Assembly (NCBI GenBank): GCA_030710605.1
Contig: CP092882.1
Location: 14,203,677-14,267,676 of the forward strand
Origin: Cordylochernes scorpioides
Taxonomy: Eukaryota; Arthropoda; Arachnida; Pseudoscorpiones; Chernetidae
Length of the DNA: 64,000 nt
Direction of reading: 5' to 3'
A model generated the notes under the pieces. That model worked only from the letters and a program-made list of their open reading frames with translations. It did not search any database and was not told where the DNA came from. This document shows positions 1 through 42,274 of the stretch, piece by piece (positions within the stretch are counted from its first letter, which is position 1; the number at the start of each line of letters is the position of its first letter). The translations under genes and the position numbers were made by a program.

Positions 1-190
1 TACTACAAGAGCCAACAGCCCGAAACGCGTACGTGGTTATCTTTCTTTGATTAATTGAGAATGAGTATTTGGCCAATTCTGGCCAATAATTCTAAAAAAT
101 CAACGAGAATAGTGAATATTTATTCAGATAGATGGCGCAAGTGATCAGCAACTTTCAGTTGCACGATAAGGAGATTCCTTTTTCTTAATC
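1..190. repeat. Foldback family B, right half, with decayed hammerhead
   Basis: Positions 46-190 match the right arm of the family B foldback repeat seen whole at 41506-41951 (the stretch with GATAGATGGCGCAAG and CAACTTTCAGTTGCACGAT). Positions 10-42 align with the hammerhead of that copy: stem II GCC/GGC flanks, loop CAACA, CGAAAC and GTACGTGG survive, but the CTGATGA core is not intact. The copy runs off the left edge of the window. Confidence 0.7.
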
Positions 191-1580: not shown

Positions 1581-2100
1581 ATACTCTTCTTCCTTATCTC
1601 TACACTGGGTGAAGTAGAATGCGTCTGCCTTTGTCATTAAGACTGGGAGCACTACTCAGTGGCAGGCTGACTTAGCTCCAAAAGAAATGGCCGCCTCTGA
1701 CATGAGGAACAGACACCATGTGCAGCTGTTCTTTACATGGAGTACAAACACTGCTTATCCTGTATCCCTGGATTAGGAGCCCTTACAGGGTACTATCAGC
1801 CAGGCCAACTGAGCCCAGGTTTTTTAGTGAGCTTGTTACTGCTCTCCCTCCTCCTATTTCATCCGGGCTTGGGACCGGCAAAGGCGGAGTTCTCATTCTT
1901 GATTAATAAAGAGAAGCAAGTTACGCGTTTTGGGGTGTTGGCCTTTGTCAGCGTAGTGAAAGCTGTAGTTGATATTTATTCCGTCAGATCACGCAAGCCA
2001 GCAGTAAATAAACGGAATGTCAGATTAACACTATAAATTGGCGAAGCCTCGGGATTTTGTCGATTTTTTTCTATGGTTTGATGGAAATTTTTACCGTGAG
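1581..2100. other. Unassigned stretch with short ORFs
   Basis: An ORF at 1737-2036 (+) has a hydrophobic run (LLLLSLLLF) but no motif I recognise. Base composition is less AT-rich than the flanks at 1600-1900, so this may be an old element or exon. No function is assigned. Confidence 0.3.
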
Positions 2101-18708: not shown

Positions 18709-18905
18709 ATATATAGAAGCATAGGGCGCCTCTCCTGTCAAAATAAACGTCAAAAACTGACGCCATCTATTGACCGTCGCCGCAAACTAGCGGCCTCGGG
18801 TCGGTGACAAAGCCACAACACCAGCTTTGGCAAATTCGGGCTAATGGCCCTCGTCAGTCTAGGGCGGACTTTATTGACGGGAGAGGCGCCCTATGCTTCT
18901 ATGGA
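18709..18905 (-). repeat. Foldback family D MITE, copy 2
   Basis: Inverted ends CATAGGGCGCCTCTCC and GGAGAGGCGCCCTATG. On the minus strand at 18833-18862 it keeps CTGACGA and stem II (GGGC/GCCC around CATTA) but has lost the GAAACCATGGTC part. The copy at 6412 shows the opposite damage. Confidence 0.85.
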
Positions 18906-20470: not shown

Positions 20471-20699
20471 CATTTGGCTGTTTTCCTTTTATACCGATAC
20501 TGAAGCTAGACTCTCTTGGAAAGGATATTTTAAATTAAATATAGACATAAGCTTTGAGAACGTTAGAAATGCAAACAATTATAAATATATAATATGCTTC
20601 GAGCATTGCTCTTCCGCAAATGGTAAGTAAAAGTGACTTTTATTAGAGAGATACACGAGATAACCAAGTATGAACAAAATTGCTTCTGTAAAAAAATAG

Positions 20700-20820
20700 T
20701 ACATATATGACATTGTATTGGGATAAGGTGCATAAAATACGAAGAGAAAAAATGGCATCTCCTTATCGCGTAACTGAAAGTTGCACGATAAGGAGATGCC
20801 CTTTTTTCCTTTCTTAAAAT
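20700..20820. repeat. Foldback family B, short deletion form
   Basis: ATTGGGATAAGGTG flank, then GGCATCTCCTTATCGCG meets its inverted copy CGATAAGGAGATGCC directly after a CAACT/AGTTG turn; the middle of the element is gone. Confidence 0.75.

Positions 20821-21338: not shown

Positions 21339-21370
<32 letters not shown>
21285..21370. repeat. Family C fragment and (AT)n
   Basis: CATCAGGATATGCCATTTTT with a TTTAATATATAT tail matches the family C end; the AT run abuts the inverted-repeat element. Confidence 0.55.
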
Positions 21371-21371
<1 letters not shown>

Positions 21372-22820
21372 ATAAATAGTTATTTAATTTTATAGTCCAG
21401 TTTTGTATTAAGATTATCTTCATTATTATGATCATTTAAATTCAAATTATAAAATTTGTAAAATGTTATTAATTTGTAGATAGAGAGCGAAAAAAAAAAT
21501 CCTTTACTTCTAATACATCATCAAGTTAATTATATATTTATAATCAATAACAATAAAAATTAACAACGTAACGTCTTTTGCATCGGCTTTTACACGTCAT
21601 TTAGACATACTCTAATCCTATATATAGAATAATCGAAGTGAGAATATATATAATAGTTAGAAAAAAGAGAGAAAGACAGAACCATGCACTTTTAATCAAA
21701 CTAATAATAAGGAAAAAAAAAAAGGTTTGTAAAGAAGGTAGATAATATTGTTAGTATATATATATATATATTTTTATAATTTTATATTTTATCCTTTTTT
21801 TTTTAAAAGATTTTTTAAGGTTTTTTTTATTTTATAATATGATTATAAATAGTTGTATTTAGTAATATATCTATAGTATGAATTAACATTTGTTATAAGT
21901 TTGGATATTATGTTTTGAAACCCTAATGGTAGACCAGACATACACAAAAAACTTTAAATTGAAATAAATTGGAAAAAGAGATCTGCTGGACCGGGGATCT
22001 TCAGATAAAAGCCCAGCGACATTTCACCCCTTCTTTATTATGTCATAGATCTCTTTTAAACCGGATTTTATGTGTTAATATTAAGTTGTTTCAGTGAAAT
22101 ATTTAAATGAACATATATAACAGATACAAGTGTTAACAAATTCAAACTGTAAACTTACCTCGACCGCGGCGTCCTCCATTGTGAATATCTATTTCTGGCT
22201 GACACATGTTGCGGGGGGGACATTTCAAATTTAGACCATTTATTCTGAATTTTTTGAACAACAAGAAAATTAAAGAAGAAAGGAAAAATAGTTAAGGGAA
22301 GAAAGCTGAATTTCATAATCTTTACAGCTAGTTATATCAAAATAACTGATTCAACACTTATTCATCTATTAATATTCCTTTAAAAAGGCAAATTATAAGA
22401 GTTTAATAAAGCTATTAATTGTGCAAATTCACCTTTATTTAACTTCCATTTTCCTCCCCAGAAATTGGAGATTAAACAAAATGAACTATATACTATAACA
22501 CTTTAAAAATCTTGTGAAAAAATCTTTTAATCAGTTATTTAATCAAAGTTTAATTAACTGTTAAAGATTATAAATTTGTATTAGTTATTATTAAGAGAAA
22601 TTATAGAAAGTTGATTTCATAAATGGATATTTCCATTTATTTTTTTTAAAATATTTTATAATTGATATACTGTTGAAATATTTTACTTGTCTGATACTAA
22701 ATTTGTTTTTAATAAATTCCATGTTTAAATTTTTAACATCTTCTATGAAATTATCTAATATATTATTTATTCTATAAAATCTTAGAAACTGACCATAATA
22801 TATACCCTTACAGCAATTTA
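21371..22820 (-). repeat. Left inverted arm of the Penelope-like element
   Basis: Reverse complement of 23317-24764. Reading leftward it holds the last about 58 RT codons, the 3' flank, an ATG (22179-22177) with a consensus splice donor GTAAGT (GT at 22158-22157), and AT-rich sequence. Confidence 0.85.
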
Positions 22821-23489
22821 ATGATAGATATTAATGACAAAACTTTCTACATTAAAATTATTCATAACAGATATAAAACAATTAAATTAGATCTTAAAAC
22901 AGCAAAAACTCTACTGGAAACATTTTTAAATTTTAACTATATAGAATTTAAAAATAAAATATATATTCAACCAGAAGGCGTTCCCATGGGAACTTCTTCT
23001 AGTCCTTTATTAGCCAATCTAATATTGTTCTGGTACGAAAGAGAATACTTTCTACAAAATAATATTAATTGGCAAATATTCCGATATGTAGATGACATAA
23101 TAATATTTAATAATCCACAGTTTAAAAAATTAATACCTGAAATATATCCTAAATACTTGAAACTTAAGAACAATGAAAAAATTTATAGAAACAAAAAAGT
23201 TAACTTTTTAGACTTGAATATAGACCTTACAAATAGTGCTGTTAGAGTTTATAATAAAAAGAGTAATTATAATTTCAATATTATAAAATACTGTAATATG
23301 AATTCTAATATATCATTTAATTGCTGTAAGGGTATATATTATGGTCAGTTTCTAAGATTTTATAGAATAAATAATATATTAGATAATTTCATAGAAGATG
23401 TTAAAAATTTAAACATGGAATTTATTAAAAACAAATTTAGTATCAGACAAGTAAAATATTTCAACAGTATATCAATTATAAAATATTAA
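22821..23489 (+). CDS. Penelope-like reverse transcriptase, N-terminally truncated
   Basis: 222 codons. It begins right at the arm/spacer junction, so the ATG is probably fortuitous and motifs 1 to A are missing. Seen: the motif B region PEGVPMGTSSSPLLANL (residues about 53-69); the catalytic motif C YVDDI (about 90); VNFLDLNIDL (about 130), the thumb-proximal motif typical of Penelope-like RTs; and a C-terminal stretch with KGIYYGQFLRFYRI. No GIY-YIG endonuclease follows before the stop. Without motif A (first catalytic Asp) it cannot be an active polymerase alone. Codon use is extremely AT-rich, like the surrounding arms. Confidence 0.75.
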   Translation: MIDINDKTFYIKIIHNRYKTIKLDLKTAKTLLETFLNFNYIEFKNKIYIQPEGVPMGTSSSPLLANLILFWYEREYFLQNNINWQIFRYVDDIIIFNNPQFKKLIPEIYPKYLKLKNNEKIYRNKKVNFLDLNIDLTNSAVRVYNKKSNYNFNIIKYCNMNSNISFNCCKGIYYGQFLRFYRINNILDNFIEDVKNLNMEFIKNKFSIRQVKYFNSISIIKY

Positions 23490-23957
23490 AAAAAAAAAAA
23501 ATGGAAATATCCATTTATGAAATCAACTTTCTATAATTTCTCTTAATAATAACTAATACAAATTTATAATCTTTAACAGTTAATTAAACTTTGATTAAAT
23601 AACTGATTAAAAGATTTTTTCACAAGATTTTTAAAGTGTTATAGTATATAGTTCATTTTGTTTAATCTCCAATTTCTGGGGAGGAAAATGGAAGTTAAAT
23701 AAAGGTGAATTTGCACAATTAATAGCTTTATTAAACTCTTATAATTTGCCTTTTTAAAGGAATATTAATAGATGAATAAGTGTTGAATCAGTTATTTTGA
23801 TATAACTAGCTGTAAAGATTATGAAATTCAGCTTTCTTCCCTTAACTATTTTTCCTTTCTTCTTTAATTTTCTTGTTGTTCAAAAAATTCAGAATAAATG
23901 GTCTAAATTTGAAATGTCCCCCCCGCAACATGTGTCAGCCAGAAATAGATATTCACA

Positions 23958-23980
23958 ATGGAGGACGACGCGGTCGAGGT
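23958..23980 (+). other. ATG plus 5' splice site in the element arm
   Basis: CACAATGGAGGACGACGC, then GGTCGAG/GTAGGT: seven codons (MEDDAVE) and a donor. The left arm has MEDAAVE and a perfect GTAAGT. GC-rich codons stand out in AT-rich sequence. It may be the first exon of the element's own ORF, since introns are known in this family, or a captured host first exon. Confidence 0.5.
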
Positions 23981-24080
23981 AGGTTTACAGTTTGAATTTG
24001 TTAACACTTGTATCTGTTATATATGTTCATTTAAATATTTCACTGAAACAACTTAATATTAACACATAAAATCCGGTTTA

Positions 24081-24162
24081 AAAGAGATCTATGACATAAT
24101 AAAGAAGGGGTGAAATGTCGCTGGGCTTTTATCTGAAGATCCCCGGTCCAGCAGATCTCTTT
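24081..24162 (+). ncRNA. Potential three-way-junction RNA structure
   Basis: A perfect 10-bp closing stem (AAAGAGATCT 24081-24090 with AGATCTCTTT 24153-24162) encloses two hairpins, GACAT/ATGTC (24093-24097, 24115-24119) and GCTGG/CCAGC (24120-24124, 24148-24152). Their loops hold GGGG (24107-24110) and CCCC (24141-24144), which could kiss. It lacks the hammerhead core order. The structure is duplicated in the left arm. Confidence 0.4.
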
Positions 24163-24764
24163 TTCCAATTTATTTCAATTTAAAGTTTTTTGTGTATGTC
24201 TGGTCTACCATTAGGGTTTCAAAACATAATATCCAAACTTATAACAAATGTTAATTCATATTATAGATATATTACTAAATACAACTATTTATAATCATAT
24301 TATAAAATAAAAAAAACCTTAAAAAATCTTTAAAAAAAAAAAGGATAAAATATAAAATTATAAATATATATATATATATATACTAACAATCTTATCTACC
24401 TTCTTTACAAACCTTTTTTTTTCCTTATTATTAGTTTGATTAAAAGTGCATGGTTCTGTCTTTCTCTCTTTTTTCTAACTATTATATATATTCTCACTTC
24501 GATTATTCTATATATAGGATTAGAGTATGTCTAAATGACGTGTAAAAGCCGATGCAAAAGACGTTACGTTGTTAATTTTTATTGTTATTGATTATAAATA
24601 TATAATTAACTTGATGATGTATTAGAAGTAAAGGATTTTTTTTTTCGCTCTCTATCTACAAATTAATAACATTTTACAAATTTTATAATTTGAATTTAAA
24701 TGATCATAATAATGAAGATAATCTTAATACAAAACTGGACTATAAAATTAAATAACTATTTATT

Positions 24765-24893
24765 ATTATAATTAATTTAGATTTAGCTTGCTAATCTAAT
24801 CAAATCTAATTGATATAAGTTATCATTATTATCAGTTTGCTCCTTAAGTTTTAAAAGTAGAATCACTGTTATAATTTTGTTATATAGTTTCTA

Positions 24894-24940
<47 letters not shown>

Positions 24941-36904: not shown

Positions 36905-37010
36905 ATTCATGCTATTCTAGCTTGAAAATCGGTACTATCAATTCACTAGCATCCCTTTTGACATTACGACTGCTTCATAACTCCTCTCGTAGGATGTTAT
37001 GAAACCGCCC

Positions 37011-37051
37011 CTGTACTGATGAGGGCCATAGTCTGAAACCATGGTATACAG
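37011..37051 (+). ncRNA. Type I hammerhead ribozyme candidate, family G left arm
   Basis: Stem I CTGTA (37011-37015) pairs with TACAG (37047-37051). Core CTGATGA is at 37016-37022. Stem II GGGC (37023-37026) with GTCT (37031-37034) uses two G-U wobbles, around loop CATA. GAAA is at 37035-37038. Stem III ACC/GGT has a two-base loop, and the cleavage triplet is GTA ending at 37046. All invariant core bases are present. Confidence 0.7.
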
Positions 37052-37089
37052 ATGTTGGCTTTTTGGAAATTCAGACAAAAAACCAACAT

Positions 37090-37130
37090 CTGTATACCAT
37101 GGTTTCAGGCTATGGCCCTCATCAGTACAG
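37090..37130 (-). ncRNA. Type I hammerhead ribozyme candidate, family G right arm
   Basis: Mirror of the left-arm motif on the minus strand: CTGTA (37130-37126), CTGATGA (37125-37119), and stem II GGGC/GCCT with only one wobble. Next come GAAA, stem III ACC/GGT, cleavage triplet GTA, and TACAG closing at 37090. It is slightly better paired than the left copy. Confidence 0.75.
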
Positions 37131-37384
37131 GAGCGGTTTCGATTTCATTATATCCTACGAGAGGAGTTAAGAAGCAGCCGTAATGCCAAAAGGGATGCTA
37201 GTGAATTGATAGTGCTAATATTCAAGCTAGAATAAAACATAAATTTACACGAAGATTGTATTCATGTACCAAAAACTTATGCACTGAGATGATAAATACT
37301 AGAAATAATTGTTTTAATGCATTTTTAAAGGGAGAGGTGCCATTCTCCTTCAACTTTACTCTCTCTATTTTTTTATGATGCATT

Positions 37385-39835: not shown

Positions 39836-40364
39836 TATGGATTGCTCTATTTTCAAAAAAATAAGACATATATTGTAATATATTCTATATCACTTATATA
39901 CGCTTTTATATATTATATAATTTAAAATAATTTTAGTTCATATCGTGTATATGAATTGGTACAAATACCTCCAACAAATATTTCTATAATTTTATTTTAG
40001 AAAAAAAAAAAATAGGGGATATTTTATTAGAGAGAGAGACCTAAAAAAAGTAACTAAATTTAACGAAAATTGTAACGAAATATTTCTTCACATAAAAAAA
40101 AAAGTTTTTCTAAGAAATATCAAATTTCTAGTTCGATTTAGAAAACCTACATAATCAAATCTGGGATTTATCGTCGAATTTTCTTAGTCAAAAATTGAAA
40201 AAAATAATTTGATCGTTTTTTAAATTTATTTGAAGGCAACACATCTCTGATGGCGTTTGGAAAAATGATTTTAAAATGTTCGTCTGCACAAAATAACTTA
40301 GATCAAATTAATTTGAGATATGTAGATATAATATTTTATCAAAATTTTAAATAACACTTGATAA
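39836..40364. other. No recognisable feature
   Basis: AT-rich with A-runs; nothing assigned. Confidence 0.4.
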
Positions 40365-40510
40365 ATTAAGAAAAAAAAACATCTCCTTATCGTGAAACTG
40401 AAAGTTGCTAATGGCTTTCGCCATCTATTATCATAATTCCGATAGATGGCGCAAACCATCAACAACTTTCAGTTACACAATAAGGAGATGTTTCTTTTTT
40501 AATTTAACCA
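40365..40510. repeat. Foldback family B, short form
   Basis: ACATCTCCTTATCGTGAAAC meets its inverted copy (CACAATAAGGAGATG) across CGCCATCTATTATCATAATT; the B centre with the hammerhead is deleted. Confidence 0.75.
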
Positions 40511-41040
40511 CCTTATTCCAGTACAATTTCACATTTGTACTATTTATTTTTTGCACAATACTACAAGGTTGTTCCAAATATTCATAAACACATGCAAAAA
40601 ATTGAAATACCAATATTATTCTCTGTTATGTATGATGTCTTTATATTATGTATAAAGTAATTGTATTATATATTATATTATACAATATAATGCGGCTTGT
40701 GATTGTAAAACGACATTTGAAAATTATCCCGCATATGTTTCTTTTCAACGAAAAATCAAAATTCATTTTAAGGAGAAATAACGATTATTTATAACCTTAG
40801 AGATGAGGTATGAAAGGATGAATTGTATTATTGTAATTATATGAATTGTAATTGTATGAATTGTATTATGTATTATTATGCCGTAATAATATTATTCGCC
40901 AATTAGTAAGAATAACAACGTTTCAAGAAAAAAACACGAACTTTTAGGACAACCTTATATCTACAAATGTATATTGACCTTTTACATACAGAAAATAAAG
41001 AATCAGAAGATTATAAAATACGTTTGAAGAGAGAGATTGA
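40511..41040. other. No recognisable feature
   Basis: AT-rich; a fragment of the B outer flank (CAATTTCACATTTGTACTAT) at 40525. Confidence 0.4.
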
Positions 41041-41134
41041 GATTGAAACTGATTTATTACAAAGTCCATATAAGATTATATAAGGTTAAATACAGAATAA
41101 ATATAAATATGAATAGATATGATTATAAATTAAT

Positions 41135-41400
41135 AAAAAGGCATCTCCTTATCGTGCAACTGAAAGTTGCTGATGGCTTGCGCCATCTAACGGAATAAAT
41201 ATCAACTATTCTCGTTGATTTTTAATTATTTCCAGAATTGGCCAAATACCCATTCTTGATTAATCAAGAATAGGTATTTGGCCAATTCTGGAAATAATTA
41301 AACATCAACGAGAATAGTTGATATTTATTCCGATAGATGGCGCAAGCCATCAGCAACTTTCAGTTGCACGATAAGGAGATGCCTTTTTCTTTATATATGC
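41135..41400. repeat. Foldback family B, near-perfect palindrome
   Basis: Arms of about 130 bp from AAAGGCATCTCCTTATCGTG to the turn CTTGATTAATCAAG and back. The copy lacks the central hammerhead segment. Confidence 0.9.
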
Positions 41401-41505
41401 ACCTTATCCCAGTACAATATCACATTAGTACTATTTTTCAAGATTATAAATATATGAATAAATAGATAGAAATAATTGATAAATATACATACATATATAA
41501 AATAT

Positions 41506-41951
41506 TAAGAAAAAGACATCTACTTATCGTGCAACTGAAAGTTGCTGATGGCTTGCGCCATCTATCGGAATAAATATCAACTATTCTCGTTGATTTTTAA
41601 TTATTCCAGAATTGGCCAAATACCCATTCTTGATTAATCAATTGTACTATTTTTTTTTCACATTTTGTAGCGTTCTCACGCAATTCTGGCCTTAACTACC
41701 CGTTTCATGATTTTTCAGGATGCCTTAATGACCAATTTTTTTGGTCGTTGAGGTACAGCTTACACCACGCTGATGAGGGCCAACAGCCCGAAACGCGTCC
41801 GTGGTTAGCTTTTCTTGATTAATCAAGAATGGGTATTTGGCCAATTATGGAATAATTAAAAATCAACGAGAATAGTTGATATTTATTCCGATAGATGGCG
41901 CAAGCCATCAGCAACTTTCAGTTGCACGATAAGGAGATGCCTTTTTCTTAA
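41506..41951. repeat. Foldback family B, full-length with hammerhead
   Basis: Arms of about 135 bp (41506-41640 and 41815-41951) flank a unique centre of about 175 bp, which contains the hammerhead at 41757-41810. There is no coding capacity. This is the only copy in the window with the complete centre. Confidence 0.85.
41757..41810 (+). ncRNA. Type I hammerhead ribozyme (family B)
   Basis: Stem I ACCACG (41764-41769) pairs perfectly with CGTGGT (41800-41805), and AGCT (41757-41760) can pair with AGCT (41807-41810) beyond an internal loop. Core CTGATGA is at 41770-41776. Stem II GGGC (41777-41780) pairs with GCCC (41786-41789) around CAACA. GAAA is at 41790-41793. A minimal stem III (AC/GT with a two-base loop) leads to the cleavage triplet GTC ending at 41799. 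Every invariant base of the hammerhead core is present, so self-cleavage after 41799 is expected. Confidence 0.85.
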
Positions 41952-42274
41952 TATATGCACCTTATCCCAGTACAATATCACATTTGTACTATTTTTTCAA
42001 GATTATAAATATATGAATAAATATATATAAATAGATAAATATACATATATACAAAATATATACAAGGTCTTCATTGGTGAGGCCCACCGCGGGAAAGAGA
42101 GATTATTTTTTTAGATTGAAGCTACTTTATTTTAATGTCCATATAAGATTATATAAGGTTAAATACAGAATAAATATAAATATGAATAAATATGATTATA
42201 TAATGATAAATATATGAATAAATAGATATAAATGTATAAAATAATTGATAAATATACATTTATATATAAATATA

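Follow-up and report, generated by a model that had tools for sequence, protein, structure and literature searches.

A hammerhead ribozyme of the pseudoscorpion Cordylochernes scorpioides is probably carried by a non-LTR retrozyme with Penelope-like insertion anatomy

Metazoan non-LTR retrozymes are described, in the parts of PMC7229834 on which we draw, as type I hammerhead ribozymes in non-coding tandem units of about 170-400 nt with a GC content below 50%, found as dimers to multimers and in thousands of dispersed copies; the element reported here shares all of these properties. The same parts describe the axolotl ribozyme HHR_Amex1, whose one-pair stem III with a palindromic tetraloop is also that of our ribozyme, and two retrozyme families in the axolotl genome, as we find here. 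The satellite hammerheads of newt and axolotl, which we liken to ours by description, have the palindromic-loop layout of stem III and units of 330-350 nt, as here, and are stated in those parts to act better as dimers. Penelope elements share the genome with retrozymes in the hosts treated there, as they do in our species. Penelope-like elements have been named the likely mobilisers of animal retrozymes because type I hammerheads, tandem arrangement and shared genomes are common to both, and a December 2024 review still gives LINEs or Penelope elements as the mobilisers.

In rotifer Penelope elements, according to the section of PMC3846280 used here, the insert is finished off by a pLTR in inverted orientation, and one of these inverted pLTRs may bear a 31-bp tail. 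Duplications there measure 8, 9 and 10 bp, with some insertions lacking any. A purified Penelope protein of Anolis cuts both strands, prefers AT-rich DNA and initiates internally, at two neighbouring sites whose positions match the tail; in vitro, its start sites were not seen to differ between the top and bottom strands (PMC11167929).

We analysed a window of 64,000 nt of C. scorpioides DNA, together with related loci from the genome. We consider it likely that the ribozyme found in this window is carried by a non-LTR retrozyme mobilised by Penelope-type copying, and that the foldback around it is an integration footprint.

The initial annotation had placed a complete type I hammerhead with all core bases at 41757-41810, and direct reading bears this out, with the full set of invariant core bases present and the stems, including the minimal stem III, formed by the bases claimed for them.

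41757..41810, plus strand: type I hammerhead with a complete core (direct reading; RF02275 match below the gathering score; covariation across 22 copies)
41793..41798, plus strand: stem III, ACGCGT, a single A-U pair closing a palindromic CGCG loop (direct reading; layout as in axolotl HHR_Amex1)

By the same reading, AGCT at 41757-41760 forms an outer pairing with AGCT at 41807-41810, stem I has six pairs (ACCACG, 41764-41769, with CGTGGT, 41800-41805) and stem II has four (GGGC, 41777-41780, with GCCC, 41786-41789). The core segments CTGATGA and GAA occupy 41770-41776 and 41790-41792, C17 is 41799, and self-cleavage is predicted at 41799/41800. Because ACGCGT is self-complementary, stem III could pair between two ribozymes, and the window ribozyme may operate in a dimer mode.

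Covariance models supported the hammerhead in part. A permissive Rfam scan of 801 nt (41400-42200) gave Hammerhead_HH9 (RF02275) as the sole match with E<=1, at 41754-41819 on the plus strand (29 bits, E 4.9e-5), with the core and the UUAC/UA internal-loop letters aligned. This score lies below the gathering score of 52, so that the ribozyme is not a member by Rfam's test, and no family reached its gathering score in the whole 64,000-nt window. The E-value alone carries little weight, because in comparable scans an evidently false tmRNA match reached E 5.7e-4 and a plain hairpin at 37003-37138 of the window scored E 1e-12 with a microRNA family whose gathering score it did not reach. A search of the whole genome with RF00163 returned no match, and control genomes were equally silent. 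The evidence that decides for a real hammerhead comes from sequence comparison, namely the genome-wide pattern count and the compensatory stem changes between subfamilies.

The pattern CTGATGAG(9-15 nt)CGAAAC has 21,225 matches in the genome, compared with 16 for the reversed pattern. Thirty loci were sampled from the head of the match list, all inside the first 4.7 Mb of contig C1; 24 contain a unit of about 338 nt, five a second, minimal hammerhead family and one neither. A 74-nt stretch has at least 40 exact copies elsewhere in the genome (the best 40 of 1,132 candidates scored), and mapping of exact copies demonstrated that the inverted arms and the centre of the window repeat belong to one repeating unit. 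Five monomers between neighbouring ribozymes measure 338, 338, 338, 339 and 347 nt, with 97-99% identity. Contig C1 holds a pentamer, in which five successive ribozymes follow each other at exactly 338-nt spacing; overall, directly oriented units are spaced by 338-350 nt.

The unit has a GC content of 40.5%, i.e. below 50%, and its longest ATG frame is 44 aa, which agrees with the earlier description of a carrier without coding capacity. A simple pattern revealed no Pol III box in the unit, and no LTR arrangement was seen for its insertions. In the folding model, the unit is highly structured as a circle (MFE -114.4 kcal/mol, compared with -68.0 +- 4.8 for 100 dinucleotide shuffles). As judged from its sequence, the carrier fits the known class of animal non-LTR retrozymes and would be a new member, in an arachnid and with two subfamilies. 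Among the papers listed by a literature search, none combined hammerheads or retrozymes with arachnids, which does not prove their absence. Three of the 30 pattern loci (L029, L030 and L031) have about 2.7 kb in common at 95-98% identity, with a retrozyme copy inside; here a larger dispersed repeat carries the ribozyme along. Another locus (L053, 1344-1785) has three hammerheads at 114-nt spacing within a single inverted arm, produced by repetition of a sub-unit (unit 278-54).

The second subfamily is about 70% identical to the 338-nt unit and carries CTGACGAGCGCCAANAGCGCGAAACGCGTTCGTGG or a close variant. Its 35-place pattern (CTGACGAGCGCCAANAGCGCGAAACGCGTTCGTGG) has 11,502 matches in the genome and none for the reversed control, and it likewise occurs in tandem, with 349-350-nt spacing, and in inverted pairs. 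Relative to the window form, stem II shows a G-C to C-G exchange and stem I shows A-T to T-A and T-A to C-G exchanges, while the core differs at position 7 and the cleavage base only. Positions 7 and 17 (the cleavage base) of the hammerhead are free to vary.

Covariation was assessed in alignment A1, whose 22 rows comprise 21 of 43 distinct segments plus L012:452-502; the aligner's antisense misreadings, near-duplicates and decayed copies were left out, and 14 rows were chosen without the core pattern or identity to the window ribozyme. The initial annotation had set neutral variation of core bases and stem pairing as one case against a ribozyme; the stem changes between subfamilies proved compensatory. 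Over the 22 rows, 92.4% of 341 pair cells hold standard pairs versus 87.7 in shuffles (none of 500 as high), a percentage raised by the omission of decayed copies, which include window:1912-1965, L051:2640-2690 and L019:2734-2793. Fourteen cells are changed on both sides, compared with 4.0 in shuffles (0/500 as high), and pairing falls to 23-41% when the partner column is slid by 1-3. The both-side changes lie at four pairs, three of them in four to five rows each (T-A to C-G, A-T to T-A and G-C to C-G); because the double changes are common to one subfamily, they represent about three events rather than fourteen. The cleavage base is C in nine rows, A in seven, T in six and G in none. A core-versus-rest comparison gave identities of 83% in the core (positions 7 and 17 counted as core), 85% in the stems and 80% in the rest.

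It is improbable, in our estimation, that the hammerhead is a non-functional passenger conserved by recent ancestry alone. Many copies are young and near-identical, and thus conservation within a subfamily says little; decayed ribozymes are present, several rows of A1 have unpaired cells, and of the five covariation measures two are no higher than in the shuffles, namely pairs with a both-side change (113/500) and further pair types (303/500). Against a passenger stand the compensatory exchanges that separate the two subfamilies in stems I and II, although their overall identity is no more than about 70%, the lack of G as cleavage base in all 22 rows and the 11,502 copies of the second form. 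Stem covariation thus indicates that the ribozyme is under constraint.

The ribozyme had been assigned to a foldback (MITE-like) repeat with terminal inverted repeats, termed family B. The inverted arms themselves are real, being 140 nt long (41502-41641 and 41815-41954), 98% complementary and 173 nt apart. The one repeat called family B, however, resolves into two neighbouring insertions, 41125-41445 and 41504-41999, and older relatives lie elsewhere in the window.

41504..41999, composite of both orientations: retrozyme insertion with ribozyme, head-to-head (outer ends at unit 153, in S1, and unit 200, in S2)
41504..41641, minus strand: inverted partial copy, unit 16-153 (unit mapping)
41648..41999, plus strand: sense copy holding the ribozyme, slightly more than one unit, from unit 188 via the cut site to 200 (unit mapping)
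41125..41445, composite of both orientations: neighbouring retrozyme insertion without ribozyme, head-to-head (ends at unit 157 and 204)
41125-41276, minus strand: minus arm of the neighbouring insertion, unit 7-157 (unit mapping)
41253-41445, plus strand: plus arm of the neighbouring insertion, unit 13-204 (unit mapping)
1912..1965, minus strand: degenerate hammerhead of a related older copy (model R1, E 1.4e-7, outside the R1 training set)
1..45, plus strand: hammerhead truncated at the edge of the window, from another related copy (model R1, E 8.1e-9; element remnant 8-189)
40361..40548, composite of both orientations: older head-to-head remnant of the retrozyme, 87% (outer ends 157 and 198)
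20687..20805, composite of both orientations: older head-to-head remnant of the retrozyme, 86% (outer ends 202 and 147)

No convincing target duplication was found at 41504-41999, the flanks of which share only 6 nt; those of 41125-41445 share 10 nt, GATTATAAAT. A further degenerate hammerhead-like stretch lies at 18808-18871 on the minus strand (model R1, E 6.5e-5).

Insertions were mapped with a five-fold repeated unit against the window and all sampled loci of at least 3 kb, L070 being left out. This gave 108 insertions, or 90 after removal of those with matching flanks; our counts use the 57 that are at least 90% identical to the unit, leaving out 33 older ones. Among these 57 young, unique insertions, 35 are head-to-head and 22 single-orientation, a share that is a biased estimate for all copies because the loci were chosen for holding a ribozyme; the 22 include two entries for L045, whose head-to-head copy is interrupted by a 35-nt gap, as well as L018 and L019, which may be one duplicated locus.

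Both outer ends of head-to-head insertions are 3'-type ends. Of 92 such ends over all 57 insertions, 48 fall at S1 (unit 144-160), 35 at S2 (unit 194-208) and nine elsewhere, the two windows having been chosen after the histogram of end positions was viewed. The 35 head-to-head insertions combine S1 with S2 in 29 cases, S1 with S1 in two, S1 with another position in two and S2 with another position in two, and never S2 with S2. A mixed S1/S2 pair thus occurs in 29 of 31 fully classified pairs, compared with a share of 0.49 expected if the ends were independent (binomial 1.2e-7), and the two outer ends of an insertion usually lie about 48 nt apart in unit position. In an earlier pass, for which the unit was doubled, 55 insertions were mapped, 36 of them head-to-head and 30 of these S1/S2. 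The junctions between arms are spread all over the unit and differ between insertions; the overlap or gap between the arms there has a median of 1 nt and ranges from -24 to 24.

In the 36 insertions that the earlier pass classed as head-to-head, the longest string common to both flanks has a mean of 10.2 nt, compared with 5.4 for mispaired flanks, a value reached in 0/20,000 permutations. A flank duplication of at least 7 nt is present in 29/36 pairs and in 19% of mispaired controls; in metazoan non-LTR retrozymes a target duplication, when present, exceeds 4 bp, with which this agrees. The flanks are 80% AT, compared with 66% for the window.

These data make it barely credible that the element is a terminal-inverted-repeat DNA transposon or MITE in which a ribozyme happens to sit. 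A unique centre between 140-nt arms of 98% complementarity is what had suggested it, but the junction position varies among insertions and the outer ends usually differ by about 48 nt; the units form direct tandem multimers, 22 of the 57 copies are in a single orientation, and the string shared by the flanks varies in length in place of a fixed-length duplication. LINE insertions can show short duplications and inversions, and twin priming would leave one 3' end only. Mobilisation by a LINE, with the inversions produced by LINE-style twin priming, is consistent with these habits, and LINEs are still open as mobilisers in the literature as far as cited, but we hold it to be very unlikely, given that both outer ends come from the 3'-type region at two fixed internal sites, that 29 of the 35 head-to-head insertions have an S1 end opposite an S2 end where a single 3' end would be expected, and that no polyA tail was visible by eye at the ends inspected.

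The anatomy of the insertions resembles that of Penelope pLTR elements as described in the excerpts cited, which share with the retrozyme a direct tandem with a head-to-head inverted partial copy, one-sided extension, an AT-rich target, a short target duplication and hammerheads within the group. Unlike Penelope elements, the retrozyme has neither a reverse transcriptase nor an endonuclease frame, its unit is 338 nt, and its ends are spaced by about 48 nt, compared with the 30-40 nt quoted for Penelope tails. It differs from the retrozymes of PMC7229834, as described in the parts cited, in its head-to-head inverted copies, paired two-site ends and arachnid host; the word 'inverted' is absent from the main text of PMC7229834, and no two-site, head-to-head insertion signature for a retrozyme was found in the literature searched. 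Because the signature is similar to that of Penelope-like retrotransposons, the data suggest that retrozyme RNA, circular or multimeric, is reverse-transcribed in the Penelope manner, a link made through the insertion signature and not through shared sequence. The earlier pointer to Penelope-like elements and retrozymes was correct.

Arms exceed one unit in 29 of 95 cases, which implies a circular or multimeric template in those cases. Among 92 inner or 5' ends, only one comes to within 3 nt of the ribozyme cut, a count biased by the choice of main arms for containing the ribozyme; this count neither supports a linear monomer template nor excludes it. Three single-orientation copies (L014, L021 and L023) start at unit 205-210 and end at 153-156, and thus equal a full unit without the segment that separates the two end sites, as would be expected had copying round a circle halted on reaching the other start site.

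Two Penelope-like lineages with long open frames reside in the genome. The first is 98-99% identical to the following window fragment in its best 150 matches.

21364-24901: head-to-head pieces of a Naiad-like Penelope element (sequence matches)

In this lineage, GIY-YIG (E 3.6e-7) lies upstream of the reverse transcriptase, in a different frame in the copy read (L070), and we take it to be Naiad-like; it forms a tandem of about 4.25 kb with near-identical copies, and inverted pairs too. For the second, Penelope-type lineage there are 112 matches, most of them 86-97% identical to the query and many with 782-aa open frames; it occurs at 2.78-kb spacing in two tandem pairs and also in inverted pairs. 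It matches RVT_1 slightly below the cut-off (E 1.1e-6), and its C-terminal GIY-YIG matches weakly (E 0.03) because the locus ends there. The end-site sample for resident Penelope-like elements comprised one insertion and two stretches, with no Penelope-like sequence in them.

Given these residents, the element could be a solo pLTR or an internally deleted Penelope derivative whose own pLTR carries the hammerhead. Its insertion anatomy resembles that of Penelope pLTRs, hammerheads are known in Penelope pLTRs, and the genome is rich in Penelope copies and paralogous families; even so, we regard this origin as unlikely. When 69 loci and the window, 70 sources in all, were searched with eight Penelope protein queries, only three contained Penelope coding sequence, and in none of the 70 is it joined to the unit, the nearest being about 500 nt away (L002) and that in L032 being an older remnant. 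In the one pLTR of the resident Penelope-type element that was sampled (L079), a simple pattern detected no hammerhead, and this pLTR is not significantly similar to the retrozyme. Moreover, pentamers of 338 nt leave no room for a coding insert, and the internal loop of stem I is that of canonical hammerheads and not of the minimal Penelope form.

The second, minimal hammerhead, family 2, has the form CTGTA-CTGATGAG...CGAAACCATGGTATACAG. At 37005-37139 of the window, two minimal hammerheads lie tail-to-tail in a 65-nt, 95% hairpin, with stem I CTGTA/TACAG and a palindromic stem III, ACCATGGT; these two hammerheads match model R1 at E 6e-5 and 0.0085, though they are outside its training set. 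We considered L032 as a direct join of a family-2 hammerhead to a Penelope frame and rejected it, the frame being 5'-truncated with other sequence between; the pLTR of that element in L079, hammerhead-free by the simple pattern, also opposes such a join. Beside this truncated reverse-transcriptase frame and antisense to it, L032 1136-1537 (+) holds a coiled-coil-like open frame (by eye), which is possibly captured host sequence. A family-2 end about 103 nt after the hammerhead start could not be established: seven of eight sampled copies that stop there in the alignment run on for at least 30 nt, and L078 stops. Both family-2 copies of L032 and that of L039 likewise stop near 103 nt, which may be one of two family-2 end sites. 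Copies in L020, L037 and L062 indicate another likely family-2 3' end, some 150 nt beyond the cut, where a motif resembles, by eye, the retrozyme's S1.

We propose the following route for the retrozyme. Multimeric transcripts of the non-coding unit of about 338 nt would be cut at each hammerhead, and the cut units would probably be closed into circles, as suggested by the known retrozyme class. The ends of the insertions suggest an enzyme of the Penelope type, with reverse transcriptase and GIY-YIG endonuclease, that nicks an AT-rich target on both strands and begins to copy the retrozyme RNA from two internal sites; these lie about 48 nt apart, and each would serve one target strand. The two cDNAs would extend round or along the RNA, up to more than one unit, halting at variable points, and would then be joined head-to-head, a joining whose product is seen in the genome. 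The outcome would be a foldback bounded at either side by a 3'-type end and accompanied by a short target duplication. Head-to-head joining of cDNAs leaves a foldback, and therefore the foldback would be an integration footprint and not the terminal inverted repeat of a transposon. The Anolis study saw no difference between strands, and a strict rule of one site per strand is thus not predicted by it; the S1/S2 pairing goes beyond it. We give an even chance to the broader proposition that animal retrozymes are substrates of Penelope machinery, with starts at two fixed internal sites on circular RNA, one per nicked strand, and with more than one round copied.

A foldback repeat with a central ribozyme need not be a DNA transposon. 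An end signature like the in vitro behaviour of the Penelope protein turns the guess about the mobiliser into a mapping and biochemical test. If our reading is true, every foldback insertion records the integration reaction, and the mobiliser of animal retrozymes would be readable from genome sequence and testable with one purified protein and one small RNA.
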